Shown here piece after piece: positions 17,954 to 45,116 of a stretch of DNA of 50,885 bases (position 1 is the stretch's first letter; the number at the start of each line of letters is the position of its first letter). This stretch comes from Arcicella sp. (GTDB taxonomy: Bacteria > Bacteroidota > Bacteroidia > Cytophagales > Spirosomataceae): NCBI GenBank assembly GCA_025354645.1, contig JANXML010000065.1, positions 1 to 50,885 of the forward strand. Reading direction: 5' to 3'. The notes beneath the pieces are model-generated. The model saw nothing but the letters and a program-made list of their open reading frames with translations, did no database searches and was not told the DNA's origin. Position numbers and translations under genes: made by a program.

Positions 17954-18427
17954 TTATATCCAATTTTTAAAGGGATTTTTTGATAAATTAGCATTAAAAT
18001 ACTGGTCTTCGTGGGTAACTTCATAATCAATCCAATCAGGGATTTTATACCATTCTTCGATTGAATGTAACTCAATTTCAGCCACAATTAGCCCTTGATT
18101 ATCACCGTGAAAAACGTCTATTTCCCACGTTTTTCCTTCATAATTAACCTTGTAGCGTGTTTTTTCAATATTATTTTCCGTAAAACCCTTTAACAATTCT
18201 ATTGCCTCAGATTTTGGAATTTGGTACTCATATTCAGGTTTAATAGCAGGATTATCGGTTTTCCCTTTTATCGTAAGAAATCCTTTATTCTCAGTGGCTC
18301 GCACACGAACCGTTTTTGCTTTTTCATTAACGATATAACCTTGACGATAATATTCGCCTTGGGGTTTTGCGAGAGTACTCCAAAGGTCTTTTTTTACTAA
18401 ATATTTTCTTTCAATTTCAAATGGCAT
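17954..18427 (-). CDS. CYTH domain protein (triphosphate tunnel phosphohydrolase type)
   Basis: This 157-residue protein starts MPFEIERKYLV with the ExExK signature of CYTH enzymes, then YYRQGYI, TVRVRATENKGFLTIKGKT, EKTRYKV and WEIDVFHGDNQGLIVAEIEL, which together line the tunnel with acidic and basic residues. Bacterial relatives hydrolyse tripolyphosphate or other triphosphates. Length is typical. It probably starts a transcript that continues into the Lrp gene. A complex repeat lies directly upstream. Confidence 0.93.
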   Translation of the reverse strand: MPFEIERKYLVKKDLWSTLAKPQGEYYRQGYIVNEKAKTVRVRATENKGFLTIKGKTDNPAIKPEYEYQIPKSEAIELLKGFTENNIEKTRYKVNYEGKTWEIDVFHGDNQGLIVAEIELHSIEEWYKIPDWIDYEVTHEDQYFNANLSKNPFKNWI

Positions 18428-18440
18428 GGTTTATTTTTTT

Positions 18441-18528
18441 AGTATAACAGGTTTCCAACCTGTTAAATTAACAATAATAGGTTTCCATCTGTTAAATTAA
18501 CAATAACATGTTGGAAACCTGTTATACT
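18441..18528. repeat. Composite repeat: two direct units plus inverted copy (AACAGGTTTCCAACCTGTT type)
   Basis: The arm at 18441-18465 (starts AGTATAACAGGTTTCC) matches the reverse complement of 18504-18528 at 24 of 25 positions. A third, direct copy (TAGGTTTCCATCTGTTAAAT) lies between them, followed by the same AATTAACAATAA spacer as the first. It occupies the gap upstream of the CYTH gene. Confidence 0.88.
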
Positions 18529-18534
18529 AAAAAA

Positions 18535-18661: not shown

Positions 18662-19102
18662 TCATTTCCGAAACAAATTACGAACTAAAAATCCACTCAT
18701 TGCTCCCCAACCGCCCACGAGACCACCAATTAAAACGGTTGCAGCAATCAATACGCCTACGTTTCCACCCACGGGAAGAATTTGAGCAATTTTATTTGAT
18801 AGTATTCCTTGTGTTGAAAAGTGATGATACCAAACCATTATTAGCCAAAGCGTTGTAACAGCAGCCGTTCCTTTCGCAAAAGTTTCGCCACTTGATGTTC
18901 CGAAAATTGCCCCGCCAATAAAAGCCGCAATTGCCACCGTCCACCATTCAAAAAAATACCCCAAGATGAAGGCTAAAACCACAATTGTGGCGGTGAGTGG
19001 ACTGGCGAAAAGTTCTTTAATTTTATCCAGAACCGATGAAAAACCAGCTTTTGCATCTGCCGTACTAGGAATATTAGGTTGCTGTGGAATGTTTAGTGCC
19101 AT
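18662..19102 (-). CDS. Unknown small membrane protein
   Basis: This 146-residue protein has a short soluble N-terminus (MALNIPQQPNIPSTADAKAG) followed by about four hydrophobic helices (residues 38-55, 56-75, 80-95 and 110-140) rich in Gly and Ala. No family is recognised. It lies between hemC and the CYTH gene on the same strand. The coding sequence uses ordinary codons for this window and has no overlapping competitor, so it is probably real. Confidence 0.75.
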   Translation of the reverse strand: MALNIPQQPNIPSTADAKAGFSSVLDKIKELFASPLTATIVVLAFILGYFFEWWTVAIAAFIGGAIFGTSSGETFAKGTAAVTTLWLIMVWYHHFSTQGILSNKIAQILPVGGNVGVLIAATVLIGGLVGGWGAMSGFLVRNLFRK

Positions 19103-19150: not shown

Positions 19151-20155
19151 CTACAAATTTGCTTTTATATCCTTTAAAATTCTATCTCCTCCTAAACTCA
19201 AAATCATTTCAGCCAACGCTTTACCAATTTCTTCTGGATTTGTTCCTGTCATGGTTTCTTTCAAGATTTCTGAGCCATCCAAACTTACGATTCCGCCTGT
19301 GATAAGTAGCCCCGAAGCGTCGGTCGCCCTAACCCCCAGAGGGGGGACTTTCGAGTCAGATTTATTGGAGTTGTTAGCTCCCCCTCTGGGGGTTAGGGGG
19401 GCTACATTTGCAAAAACTGGAATACTACAACCACCCTGTAAACGTCTCAAAAAGGCACGTTCAGCCAATAATTGCTGTTCCGTCTCAGCGTGATTACACA
19501 GTTCTCTAATTTTAGCTTTTTTCTCTGAATCTAAACCGACAGCACATTCCAACGCTACTGAACCTTGTCCAACGGCGGGCGTGAAAGTATCCACAGAAAT
19601 CATCTCGGCAATGTGTTCTTCGTAGCCCATCCGATGCACGCCTGCGTAGGCAAGAATTAGGGCATCGCACACACCGCTTTCCAATTTTGCCATGCGAGTT
19701 TGAAGGTTTCCACGCATGTCAACCGTCTGAATATGAGGATAATAGTGTTTCAACATTGCCACTCTGCGGGTTGAAGACGTGCCGACAATAAAGGGTTTTC
19801 CACTATCTAATCGCAAACTTTTATCAAAACTTACCAAGACATCGTTCACTTTTTCACGTTCGGTAAAAGCGATTAATTCCAAATCTTCCGACAATTCTGA
19901 TTGTAAATCTTTGGCAGAATGTTGGGCAATATCAATTTGTCCAGAACGCAATTGTTGTTCCAATTCTTCCGTAAAAACCCCTTTTGAACCAATTTTTGAC
20001 AATGAACGGTCAAGAATTTGGTCGCCCTTGGTATTGATGATAACGATTTCGACTTCAAGTCCGCCACGTTCCAACGTTTCTCTGATGTATTCTGCTTGCC
20101 AAAGGGCTAATTTTGAGCCTCTTGTGCCTAATTTTATAACATTATTTATCGACAT
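19151..20155 (-). CDS. hemC: Hydroxymethylbilane synthase (porphobilinogen deaminase) with in-frame palindromic insertion
   Basis: HemC condenses four porphobilinogen units to hydroxymethylbilane in heme synthesis. Landmarks are IKLGTRGSKLALWQAE, the catalytic Asp region (about KDLQSELSEDLELIA), VGTSSTRRVAML, MRGNLQTRMAKLESG and the dipyrromethane-cofactor Cys (C243 in LQGGCSIPVFA). At 334 residues it is about 25-30 longer than usual. The excess is residues 252-281, encoded by a GC-rich inverted repeat (19327-19398) inserted in frame between FANV and GLLITGG. The cofactor loop itself is intact, so the enzyme is probably functional. A hairpin ends just before the start codon. Confidence 0.95.
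   Translation of the reverse strand: MSINNVIKLGTRGSKLALWQAEYIRETLERGGLEVEIVIINTKGDQILDRSLSKIGSKGVFTEELEQQLRSGQIDIAQHSAKDLQSELSEDLELIAFTEREKVNDVLVSFDKSLRLDSGKPFIVGTSSTRRVAMLKHYYPHIQTVDMRGNLQTRMAKLESGVCDALILAYAGVHRMGYEEHIAEMISVDTFTPAVGQGSVALECAVGLDSEKKAKIRELCNHAETEQQLLAERAFLRRLQGGCSIPVFANVAPLTPRGGANNSNKSDSKVPPLGVRATDASGLLITGGIVSLDGSEILKETMTGTNPEEIGKALAEMILSLGGDRILKDIKANL
19327..19398. repeat. GC-rich palindromic element inside hemC (family P1, copy 1)
   Basis: The arms CCCTAACCCCCAGAGGGGG (19327-19345) and its exact complement (19380-19398) flank a 34-nt AT-richer spacer. Each arm also holds its own mini-palindrome CCCCC-AGA-GGGGG. Read on the hemC strand it encodes APLTPRGGA, a spacer, then VPPLGVR. 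Confidence 0.93.
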
Positions 20156-42638: not shown

Positions 42639-42659
42639 TTCTAAGAAAAACAACTAATT

Positions 42660-45116
42660 ATGAATTCAGTATCATTCTGGAACAACTTCCAAAAACCCAC
42701 AAAATTTCTTTATATTCTTTCCTTAACAATTCTTGTTATCTCGTTGATAATCTTTGGTTTAGCTTATTTCAAAGGATTAGAAAACGTGATACATTGGGAT
42801 GTGTTGAGTGAATTGGGTGAAGTTCCAATCATCCTCGATCAATTCAAAGTTGGCGAAGAAATCCTTAGTATCCCTTCCAAAACTTTCACGGTTACGGAGC
42901 AATTTGTGGCTTCTCCGATGGCAATAAATACGCTTGGAAATTACCTATTTTTAGGACTTTTCATGACTGGATTTTTGATTATTTTATCTGCAACATCAGC
43001 CCTACGTCGTTTTTGGTATTTGATATTTATGGGGTCGGTAATTCTGTTAATTGTTACTTTCAATTTGAGTTTGGTTTTCAATTTATCGGATAATTATACC
43101 AACCTCGGAGCCATCATTTTATACATCGGAACAAGCTATTTTTTCCATGCTTTTCGCCCAGATATTGACATTCTTAAACGCTTTTTTACATTCCTTTTCA
43201 TAACAGTTTTGGTCGGAATTTCAATTCATTATTTCAGTAAAGTAGTCACTCCATTCCTGCTACTTTCAAGTTACAGAACCTCAGGAGCAATGTTTCTTTC
43301 CATTGGCTTCATTTTTTTAATTTCTTATGAAATAATTAATGGATTTTTGATAATTACAACTTCTTCAAAAGGCTCGAAACAATTACTTAACTTTCTGATT
43401 ATCAGTTTTATATATTTAGTAAACGTTCTATTAGTTTTCTTATACAACAACAAAACGATTGACTGGAATATGATTTACTTGAGTCCTTTTTTGTTATTAA
43501 TTATCTCAATAATATTGGGAATATGGGGTTTTAAACAACGAAGAAATTTGAGCATTGAAGTGATGGATTTTGAGGAATCGGGAGCGTTTATATACATAGG
43601 TTTAAGCATCATTACACTTGCAACGTGCGGACTTGCCTTCGCAACGGGAAATGATCCAATGGTTGAAGTTTTTGAGGATGCTGTAACTTACTCGCATTTA
43701 GGTATGGGCATTATGTTTTTAGTTTATGTAATTCTCAATTTTTCAAGCCTTTTTCGGGATGGATTAGAGGTTTATAAAGTCGTTTTTAAACCTTTTCGTT
43801 ACCCAATTTGGATGTTCAGAATTATGGCTTTAATCATGGTTGGAGGTTTGCTTTTATTCATTGATTTTTTTCCAGTAAATCAATTCTCCGCTGCCAATTA
43901 CAATGCTTTGGGCGACTATTACGCCACTGATAAAGATTACAAGTTTGCCGAAATTGAGTATAAAATTGCATCATCCTACGAACCTCGAAATCATAAAACC
44001 AATTATGCCTTAGCTTCCCTTGCTCTCAATCAAGGCGACAATGAAACGGCAGGCGTTTATTTCAGAAAAGCAACCGCCAAAAATCCATCACCCTTTGATT
44101 ATGAAGGACTTAGCCGTTCGCTTTCGGATGGTGACCAGTTTTTTAATGCCATTTTTGTGTTGAAAGAAGGCGTACAAAAATTTCCAAAATCAGGTGAATT
44201 GCAGAATAATCTTGCTTATTTATATAACAAATCAAAACTGCCAGATTCGACTTTGATTTATTACGATATGGCAATTAAGAATGCTAAAAAACCAGAAGTT
44301 CCAGCCAGTAATTTACTGGCATTTTGGGCAAATAATTTGAAAGAAAAAGGCATTGAGGAAGTATTGGATAAAACGGAAGATATCAAGTATAATTCATTTC
44401 AAGCCAATAAATTAGCAATAGCCCCCCCCGCCCCCAATGGGGGAGCCAGTATAATGAATTTGGACTCAGATGCTCCCCCTCTGGGGGCGGGGGGGGCTTC
44501 TCTTTCCGTCTCCAATTTCGCCCTAATTTATAACCTTTCCCTTCGTCAAAAATCAAAAGGTAAATCATTGCCATTGAGGCGATTAGCTGAATCAGAAGAC
44601 AATGAATCGTTATCAGAAGATTTACTTTTTGCCAATGCTTTGCAAGATTATTACCAAGGTGATAAACTCATTGCATTTCAGAATTTTCAGGCTTGGTCTT
44701 TGGGAGATTCTACCGATAAAAAAGGGAAATATTACGCCCTTTTATTGAACACTTTACTGAAAAAAGAAAAAGCTGAATCTGTATTCATTTCCGACATAAA
44801 AAACCCAACTGGGCAAGGTTTAAAACGTTACCCTTTGAATGAAAATGTGGTTGAAAAAGTCGTGGAAATTTTCAATAAAAATAAACAACCCGAAAAGGCT
44901 TACGATGCCATTTCAAAGGCAATTGCTTGGCGAAAAGATTCGCCAAAACTATACGAATTATACATCATACAAGCCCTAAACATCGGCATGAAAGACTATG
45001 CAACAGATGGTTTGACCACACTCAAAAAATTATCCCCAACCGATTATCAGCGTTTTCTACCGACCTATCAAGCCAAACTACAATCCATAGAAAAGGCAGG
45101 GGTTGGGTTTAAGTAA
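42660..45116 (+). CDS. Large membrane protein with C-terminal TPR region and in-frame palindromic insertion
   Basis: This 818-residue protein has about 11-12 transmembrane helices in residues 15-405, then a soluble TPR-like region (NYNALGDYYATDKDYKFAEIEYKI.. and repeating helical pairs) to the end. The function is unknown; similar TM-TPR proteins in Bacteroidota are annotated only as TPR or membrane proteins. Residues about 588-616 (APPAPNGGAS..APPLGAGGAS) are encoded by a GC-rich palindrome (44420-44499) and interrupt the TPR region in frame. It precedes a LolD-like ATPase by 32 nt, so the two may be co-expressed. Confidence 0.85.
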   Translation: MNSVSFWNNFQKPTKFLYILSLTILVISLIIFGLAYFKGLENVIHWDVLSELGEVPIILDQFKVGEEILSIPSKTFTVTEQFVASPMAINTLGNYLFLGLFMTGFLIILSATSALRRFWYLIFMGSVILLIVTFNLSLVFNLSDNYTNLGAIILYIGTSYFFHAFRPDIDILKRFFTFLFITVLVGISIHYFSKVVTPFLLLSSYRTSGAMFLSIGFIFLISYEIINGFLIITTSSKGSKQLLNFLIISFIYLVNVLLVFLYNNKTIDWNMIYLSPFLLLIISIILGIWGFKQRRNLSIEVMDFEESGAFIYIGLSIITLATCGLAFATGNDPMVEVFEDAVTYSHLGMGIMFLVYVILNFSSLFRDGLEVYKVVFKPFRYPIWMFRIMALIMVGGLLLFIDFFPVNQFSAANYNALGDYYATDKDYKFAEIEYKIASSYEPRNHKTNYALASLALNQGDNETAGVYFRKATAKNPSPFDYEGLSRSLSDGDQFFNAIFVLKEGVQKFPKSGELQNNLAYLYNKSKLPDSTLIYYDMAIKNAKKPEVPASNLLAFWANNLKEKGIEEVLDKTEDIKYNSFQANKLAIAPPAPNGGASIMNLDSDAPPLGAGGASLSVSNFALIYNLSLRQKSKGKSLPLRRLAESEDNESLSEDLLFANALQDYYQGDKLIAFQNFQAWSLGDSTDKKGKYYALLLNTLLKKEKAESVFISDIKNPTGQGLKRYPLNENVVEKVVEIFNKNKQPEKAYDAISKAIAWRKDSPKLYELYIIQALNIGMKDYATDGLTTLKKLSPTDYQRFLPTYQAKLQSIEKAGVGFK
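44420..44499. repeat. GC-rich palindromic element inside TPR gene (family P1, copy 2)
   Basis: The left arm (44420-44446) starts AGCCCCCCCCGCCCCCAATG and the right arm (44472-44498) is its near-perfect reverse complement (25 of 27), with a 25-nt spacer. Each arm has a CCCCC..GGGGG core like the hemC copy. It is read in the same frame as in hemC. Confidence 0.93.

Follow-up and report, generated by a model that had tools for sequence, protein, structure and literature searches.

An in-frame palindromic element in hemC of Arcicella sp. and its likely kinship with elements carrying a DUF559 nuclease

The hemC gene of Arcicella sp. carries a long palindrome within its reading frame, which raises the question of what this palindrome is and how it came to lie there. 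The DNA analysed, referred to throughout as the window, is a stretch of 50,885 nucleotides (NCBI GenBank assembly GCA_025354645.1, contig JANXML010000065.1), and its genome is designated G000. A sequence-only reading of the window had proposed that HemC holds about 30 extra residues (252–281) encoded by a palindrome at 19327–19398 with exact 19-bp arms, inserted just after the cofactor cysteine loop with frame and motifs intact. It took the insert for a selfish palindrome tolerated as a loop, in the manner of the Rickettsia palindromic elements. The gene and the parts of the insert are delimited as follows.

19151–20155, minus strand: hemC (porphobilinogen deaminase, also called hydroxymethylbilane synthase), the host gene, 334 aa, identified from its ORF and Pfam domains.
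19308–19403, no strand assigned: miniature palindromic element AGCC...GGCT of 96 bp, adding 32 codons to the hemC frame, recognised from its sequence, with ends placed by comparison with other copies; missing in four HemC of the same genus.
19309–19326, plus strand: tail module GCCCCGAAGCGTCGGTCG of the left arm, present at 10 places in its own genome.
19327–19345, no strand assigned: left arm, including the mini-hairpin CCCCC-AGA-GGGGG at 19333–19345.
19346–19379, no strand assigned: spacer, beginning with a motif like GACTTTCGAGTC; similar spacer starts occur in several other copies.
19380–19398, no strand assigned: right arm, including the mini-hairpin CCCCC-TCT-GGGGG at 19380–19392.

The claim of exact arms held, as the two 19-nt arms are 100% complementary with 34 nt in between. 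The arms are preceded on the left by GTAGCCCCGAAGCGTCGGTCG and followed on the right by GGGCTAC, and the outer ends AGCC and GGCT are also seen in other copies. Since comparison with these copies sets the recurrent ends at AGCC and GGCT, the element is taken as 19308–19403; the extra residues are thus real, but their extent had to be corrected. The encoded peptide is approximately VAPLTPRGGANNSNKSDSKVPPLGVRATDASGL. Frame and motifs are intact as had been stated, with a 334-aa ORF in which both Pfam porphobilinogen deaminase domains (PF01379 and PF03900) score over their cut-offs. In alignments with PDB structures, HemC is interrupted after E. coli residue 248, and the chain picks up at about residues 260–265 (weak second matches). 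In terms of the enzyme's fold, this is the hairpin turn following the cofactor cysteine loop, in agreement with the proposed position. Structure prediction for HemC from its single sequence was uninformative (mean pLDDT 35.8). The RNA of 19310–19410 is predicted to fold at −49.9 kcal/mol, compared with a mean of −32.5 for 200 shuffles (z −5.3). No Rfam family reached its gathering score with the element, the only matches being sub-threshold ones to microRNAs.

HemC was detected in 38 of the 39 genomes searched. Within the genus, HemC lacks the insert in G003, G005, and G006 (303 aa, 92–93% identical over residues 5–249) and in G001 (309 aa, 88% identical), so that one outcome that would have refuted the sequence-only reading, the presence of the same residues, encoded by non-palindromic DNA, in all close relatives, was not met. 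The HemC proteins of G002, G004, and G007, also of the same genus (338, 330, and 329 aa, respectively), carry a different insert at the same turn. In G007 and G004 it is an inverted repeat of CAGT-rich units, with 32-nt arms that are 84% complementary (L082 2245–2336 and L084 1267–1361), and two unrelated repeat families therefore fill one permissive HemC turn in sister species. No inverted repeat was detected in the HemC insert of G002. Other short repeats were observed in PrmC of G005 (GGCAGTCGGCAGTTGG) and adjoining the element in PyrD of G013.

The second refuting outcome, an absence of further copies in the genome, was not met either. With up to two mismatches, the hemC arm has 32 matches in G000, while its reversed-pattern control has none; CCCCCNNNGGGGGR has 50, against 1+1 for its control. 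Within the window, the arm occurs three times at up to three mismatches (0.00 expected per shuffled window), and the tail GCCCCGAAGCGTCGGTCG, at up to two, is found at 10 places in the genome, the hemC one included. G000 has 33 element clusters, two of them inside the window. The second complete copy there lies in frame in another long gene:

42645–45113, plus strand: 823-codon open frame that hosts the second copy in the window, with orthologues in G003 and G005.
44420–44498, no strand assigned: the other complete element of the window, lying in frame in the 823-codon ORF (IAPPAPNGGASIMNLDSDAPPLGAGGA).

This ORF matched no Pfam family at E 1e-5 and appears TPR-like by eye; its orthologue in G003 retains a relic of the tail module. 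A different repeat was observed at window positions 18441–18530, where inverted and direct copies of units like AACAGGTTTCCAACCTGTT lie between a CYTH-like gene (17954–18427; named by eye) and the gene at 18662–19102. Elsewhere in the genome, units of this type form 31-bp arrays beside a Y1 transposase ORF of RAYT size (L039).

The unit of the palindromic family is an arm of about 25 nt, in which a C-rich tail (AGCCCCCTAA and variants) is joined to a small hairpin, CCCCC-NNN-GGGGG, and two such arms face each other around a short spacer whose sequence differs among copies. Across 171 arms from G000, G005, G013–G015, and G017, the commonest tails were AGCCCCCTAA (82) and AGCCCCCCCCG (17), followed by the hairpin and then usually by A and A or G; in 161 of them the tail before the stem measures 10–11 nt. 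The base just outside AGC was G in none of the 171 arms, which suggests a target or end preference. Loop triplets matched in 13 of 24 two-armed copies in G000 (p 0.005), 23 of 25 in G005 (p 0.0002), and 7 of 16 in G013 (p 0.11), and because they often match, the arm pair tends to act as a unit; single arms occur too. The 51 two-armed copies measured were 54–128 bp long. A constant length modulo 3 was rejected, as these copies spread over the three classes (24, 18, and 9), which means that it is the insertion as a whole that has to preserve the frame. A design confined to a single frame was likewise rejected, given that several frames are used (SPLTPRGG, PPNPQRG, APQPPEGEL, and FPLWGLGG). Some cluster sets retained only clusters with at least one exact CCCCCNNNGGGGG unit, leaving C94:984, C333:570–629, and C289:16251 uncounted, and L215 and L217 were left out as repeats of places already counted.

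The family is patchily distributed. Exact CCCCCNNNGGGGGTTAGGG was found in six of 39 genomes, its own included (G000, 22; G005, 30; G013, 29; G014, 4; G017, 3; G015, 1), and was absent from six of the eight genomes of the same genus. A wider sample of 296 genomes from across the phylum contained nine, again including its own, in which the arm occurs with at most one mismatch. Named records (23 stretches) also carry it, among them Salegentibacter, Aequorivita, Flavobacterium, Gillisia, Lacihabitans, uncultured Aquimarina, and MAGs labelled Prevotella and Fibrobacter. The arm is further present in 13 viral contigs (IMG/VR, L277–L289), at least two of which (L287 and L289) carry an in-frame copy, in ORFs 570 and 551 codons long; such contigs could possibly serve as a route between hosts.

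A copy was counted as genic if it lay in an ORF of at least 200 codons with at least 20 codons on either side. This rule excludes contig-end pieces (L005, L052, and L067) and N-terminal copies (L008, L022, L032, and L060), may admit a spurious ORF, and is not in itself proof that every ORF is a gene. The search for clusters was confined to stretches retrieved around pattern matches, so the counts are not whole-genome censuses; several copies in one gene were counted singly. By this rule, elements were genic and in frame in 14 of 33 clusters in G000, 14 of 28 in G005 (same genus), 26 of 37 in G013 (another genus), 1 of 3 in G014, 3 of 3 in G017, and the only one in G015. Pfam domains over cut-off support 11 of the 14 in-frame hosts in G000 (HemC, an RNA ligase, an FAD/FeS oxidoreductase, PDH E2, an FG-GAP protein, PrmC, two histidine kinases, PBP1c, an SNF2 helicase, and an ISP enzyme), and the remaining three have none. 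Equivalog cut-offs were exceeded by six of ten scanned hosts in G005, namely LeuRS (two element copies), ValRS, PheT, MurD, ArgC, and PBP1c, and by six of ten in G013, namely MetH, ValRS (two copies), LeuRS (three), Mfd, LigA, and PyrD. The element is also in frame in MetH of the isolate Flavobacterium sp. I-STPP5a, in MnmE of G140 (4.13 Mb, one contig), and in RNase R of a Prevotella MAG; the MnmE and RNase R hosts likewise exceed curated cut-offs.

Twelve G000 hosts were aligned with relatives. For nine, at least one relative shows no hemC-type element in the loop concerned, and for one, the 823-codon ORF, a relative has a relic; for PBP1c and the RNA ligase, the only orthologue found has an element of its own. 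Ribosomal bypass or splicing is not favoured, since all 12 hosts compared keep an open frame through the insert. With its genome-wide copies, in-frame copies in many curated families, and insert-free orthologues, the proposal of a selfish palindrome tolerated in frame is supported.

Certain sites recur. LeuRS of G005 and G013 carries miniatures at two common turns and ValRS at one, and PBP1c, the RNA ligase, the 823-codon ORF, and the L044 protein carry them at the same loop in G000 and G005, as other variants or at other offsets. A histidine-kinase site is common to G000 (twice), G013, and G227. Inheritance, lateral transfer, and target preference were not distinguished for these sites. No clean empty site was found in the aligned hosts in which a target site duplication could be read, the loops being diverged around the sites. 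As an internal control, a GTAG-REP family of G000 (GTAGCTCGAAGTGGCACTTCGAGA) with 84 matches was examined at 30 loci, merged to 26 clusters. It was genic in only two of these, in frame in RibD and CrtD, against 14 of 33 for the palindromic element (Fisher p 0.003). This GTAG-tagged family (L040, G000:C180; also L310 and L338) was found around a Y1 ORF of RAYT size.

Longer relatives of the element, which had been overlooked together with the 96-bp extent, its exchangeable tail modules, and the occurrence of such elements elsewhere in Bacteroidota and in MAG contigs labelled Fibrobacter, encode a DUF559 nuclease between the same kind of arms. DUF559 proteins are Vsr-like and of the PD-(D/E)XK type (PMC12907096). 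In NCBIfam scans, MetH of G013 and that of Flavobacterium sp. I-STPP5a (L118) both proved to contain a DUF559 domain. Arms of the hemC type lie on both sides of an in-frame DUF559 in MetH of G013 (L218), G014 (L362), and this Flavobacterium, and were seen in that arrangement only in these three MetH cases. The printed sequence puts the whole insert at about 504 bp in G013 and at about 450 bp in L118; each length is divisible by three. MetH of G014 contains two DUF559 domains in one frame of 1645 codons, the second framed by two complete miniatures. In LeuRS of G140, a DUF559 insert occupies the same turn as miniatures do in G005 and G013; on the T. thermophilus enzyme this turn falls between residues 236 and 243. 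The hemC tail module GCCCCGAAGCGTCGGTCG recurs in the arms of the G007 DUF559 element, and the peptide ATDASG, encoded by this module, on the right side of the DUF559 inserts of G005 IleRS and G007.

A search with PF04480 gave 21 matches in 13 of 29 genomes, nine of them within long host frames: LeuRS and RecG of G140, IleRS of G005, MetH of G013 and of G014, an AddA/RecB-like protein that scores below its cut-offs, and two PDDEXK_1 proteins. The pattern E...W...Q...D...E.DG..H is kept in 18 of 18 aligned DUF559 domains, which share eleven invariant residues; the presumed active-site residues E, W, Q, D, E, D, G, and H are all among them. No splicing junction (His-Asn plus Cys, Ser, or Thr) was seen when the DUF559 inserts were read by eye, except in L368 of G140. 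This tenth PF04480 case is a DUF559-like nuclease in a frame of 717 codons with the intein-like end VVVHN-C; it looks like a true intein and might be a bridge between both kinds of in-frame nuclease.

To assess the flanks of DUF559, the left flank was aligned locally with the reverse complement of the right, and 984 control windows were scored in the same way. The Bacteroidota set comprised 18 loci, that is, an earlier set of 22 without the intein L368, the diverged L372 and L379, and the partial L370; the coordinates of L118, which had cut into its arm and with which no repeat was found, were narrowed. Inverted repeats above the 99th percentile of the controls flank 12 of these 18 loci and 6 of 8 loci from other phyla (cyanobacteria, alphaproteobacteria, and Deinococcus), or 18 of 26 overall, in four phyla. 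The eight were chosen from 35 plasmid-collection records to span taxa, not at random. The six Bacteroidota loci without a flanking repeat above the 99th percentile include the in-frame LeuRS and RecG of G140. In the earlier form of the test, 12 of 22 loci scored above every one of 200 shuffles made from their own flanks. A harsher control, with flanks swapped between loci, left only 7 of 22 standing out; the similarity of arms from locus to locus raises its 99th percentile to 49. Arm sequences vary between DUF559 elements, and short-ORF DUF559 genes between inverted C-rich repeats of other sequence were observed at L369, L371, L374–L377, L380, L381, and L384–L387. DUF559 was also seen between hpa genes on two Deinococcus plasmids and between transhydrogenase subunit genes on a Sphingomonas plasmid.

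The anatomy of the element, its dispersal, its tolerance in frame, and the association of arms with the nuclease are shown. That the hemC insert is an in-frame mobile palindrome is very likely, and its kinship with the DUF559 elements is likely. That DUF559 is the mobiliser is inferred, no movement having been observed, and is only slightly more probable than not. The reading we favour, with a probability of roughly 0.62, is that the hemC insert is a non-autonomous miniature of a mobile family whose full-length relatives have the structure arm–DUF559–arm. One criterion for a MITE, terminal inverted repeats common to a longer nuclease-encoding element, is met in the three MetH cases, the cutting of DNA by DUF559 being inferred. 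Another, an autonomous copy in the same genome, is not, as G000 (assembly 95.4% complete) holds no conserved DUF559 and only one diverged match (E 3.8e-9) without flanking repeats. Under the favoured reading, DUF559 would act on DNA by nicking or cutting, either at the target or at the hairpin arms, after which a copy would arise at a new site through repair or strand transfer, with miniatures served in trans by the nuclease. Insertions in genes would survive only if the frame is kept and the site is a surface turn, where they would add a flexible Pro/Gly-rich loop; HemC, in this view, merely tolerates its insert.

A bolder version would make DUF559 proteins the mobility genes of a widespread and undescribed class of elements, in which a nuclease between hairpin arms enters essential genes without splicing and moves miniature coding palindromes in trans. 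One system would then comprise the palindromes of Bacteroidota and the comparable C-rich hairpin repeats that surround DUF559 in cyanobacteria, alphaproteobacteria, and Deinococcus. We suspect that this goes a little too far to be right, while leaving it in play.

Other explanations have to account for the same observations. The element could be a REP or REPIN family, two inverted hairpin units and a spacer forming a mobile hairpin moved by a REP-associated tyrosine (Y1, HUH) transposase. Its architecture is indeed like that of REPINs, which are inverted REP doublets with a spacer (PMC3116915), and the GTAG-REP family is also sometimes in frame in genes, as in RibD and CrtD. G000 has six Y1_Tnp matches, two of them in ORFs of 219 and 216 aa amid other repeat families; this is the size of a RAYT. 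However, none of the 36 Y1_Tnp loci examined (of 44 matches) is bounded by arms, and the only one with a hairpin unit (L182) has it at position 288, away from the gene. The 10–11 nt tail before the stem also speaks against this origin, and membership of the GTAG or CGTC REP super-family was rejected, with terminal GTAG in only 18 of 167 arms and CGTC in none. We consider the REP explanation unlikely. The same holds for the possibility that the palindrome is selfish and coding, as in Rickettsia, with an unknown mobiliser, DUF559 being a passenger or a separate element that favours the same loops or lands near palindromes. In its favour, only three of six arm-bearing genomes among G000–G024 carry a conserved DUF559 (E under 1e-20), compared with 6 of 19 without arms, so that co-occurrence is not significant (p 0.63). 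Unrelated repeats of the CAGT-rich or GGCAGT type moreover fill the same HemC and PrmC loops and adjoin the element in PyrD, which indicates that such loops are generally permissive. Passenger status would not, however, predict the inverted repeats on both sides of DUF559 in most of the loci tested.

A domesticated feature, whether an mRNA hairpin, a terminator-like or G-rich structure, or a useful HemC loop, would fit the strong predicted hairpin and the 19 of 33 G000 copies that lie outside long ORFs. It is very improbable in view of the absence of the insert from four same-genus HemC, its presence in unrelated proteins, the lack of an Rfam family at gathering score, and the variation of the spacer between copies. 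An artefact of assembly or binning deserves mention, given that the source is a draft of 392 contigs in which the contig ends C229/C233 and C56/C377 fall inside elements; the repeats thus probably fragment the assembly. This can be all but dismissed, as elements are in frame in MetH of a named isolate, Flavobacterium sp. I-STPP5a, and in MnmE of the single-contig G140.

Knowledge of coding palindromes goes back to the Rickettsia reports of 2000 and 2002; no mobiliser is named in the sections of the cited papers bearing on them. The sequence-only reading knew of no formal description for this lineage; likewise, none of the motif peptides, of the arm sequence, or of the link between DUF559 and palindromes was found in the open-access literature searched, a search that left most subscription papers outside its scope. 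Since a nuclease is bounded by the same kind of arms as the miniatures, and once lies at the same loop, the movement of coding palindromes becomes directly testable. If the link is true, it would give a role to DUF559, formally a domain of unknown function; should the nuclease prove to be the mobiliser, the elements would form a new class, and otherwise an extension of known coding palindromes. Essential enzymes (LeuRS, IleRS, MetH, HemC, PrmC, and LigA) that hold from a few up to about 170 foreign residues are natural experiments, relevant to how proteins evolve, to annotation, and to selecting permissive sites at which proteins can be tagged.

Several known systems share features with these elements. 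The coding palindromes of nematomorph mitochondria (PMC6649704) are also inverted repeats within translated genes, but they are perfect and both of their arms encode protein as part of the gene, whereas the arms described here are inserts missing from orthologues. Homing endonucleases of the Vsr-like EDxHD kind and inteins (PMC3943268) place a small PD-(D/E)XK-type nuclease in frame in a conserved host protein. The DUF559 inserts resemble them in having a nuclease domain in frame within such a protein, and differ in that no splicing motif was recognised by eye (L368 excepted), several unrelated target sites are used, end palindromes are present in many cases, and miniature forms exist. REPINs with RAYT (Bertels and Rainey, 2011; PMC3116915) are likewise inverted doublets of short palindromes with a spacer, presumed to be the replicative unit; they are described as extragenic and as lying beside RAYT genes, while the elements analysed here are linked to DUF559 and in many cases lie within genes.

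Closer in behaviour are the GTAG/CGTC REPs that lie within genes (Di Nocera, 2013; PMC3733652), whose hairpin units pair up as inverted dimers around spacers. Dimers or groups of these REPs that keep the frame encode 20–30 aa, DNA ligase, tRNA synthetases, and repair genes are among their targets, and about the same site was struck in two species in recB of Xanthomonas. Terminal GTAG is found in over 90% of units in most GTAG REP families, and Bacteroidetes are named once in the text of that study, for CGTC repeats (PMC3733652). In contrast, the tag is not conserved in the present elements, no RAYT was found beside the arms at the 36 Y1_Tnp loci examined, and their genic share is larger than that of the GTAG-REP of G000. 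The hemC element works, by analogy, like the Rickettsia palindromic elements (Ogata, 2000, 2002, as given in PMC10969869, PMC3733652, and PMC6649704); no sequence comparison with them was made and membership is not claimed. It differs from them in phylum, in length (54–128 bp here, about 150 bp for the Rickettsia elements), and in having longer relatives that encode a nuclease, which the cited sections do not report for the Rickettsia elements. Like them, these elements are palindromic, multi-copy, variable between species, and in frame in unrelated genes, including housekeeping ones, and they are missing from orthologues in related species, as in the HemC of 303–309 aa from four same-genus genomes and for 9 of the 12 hosts compared.
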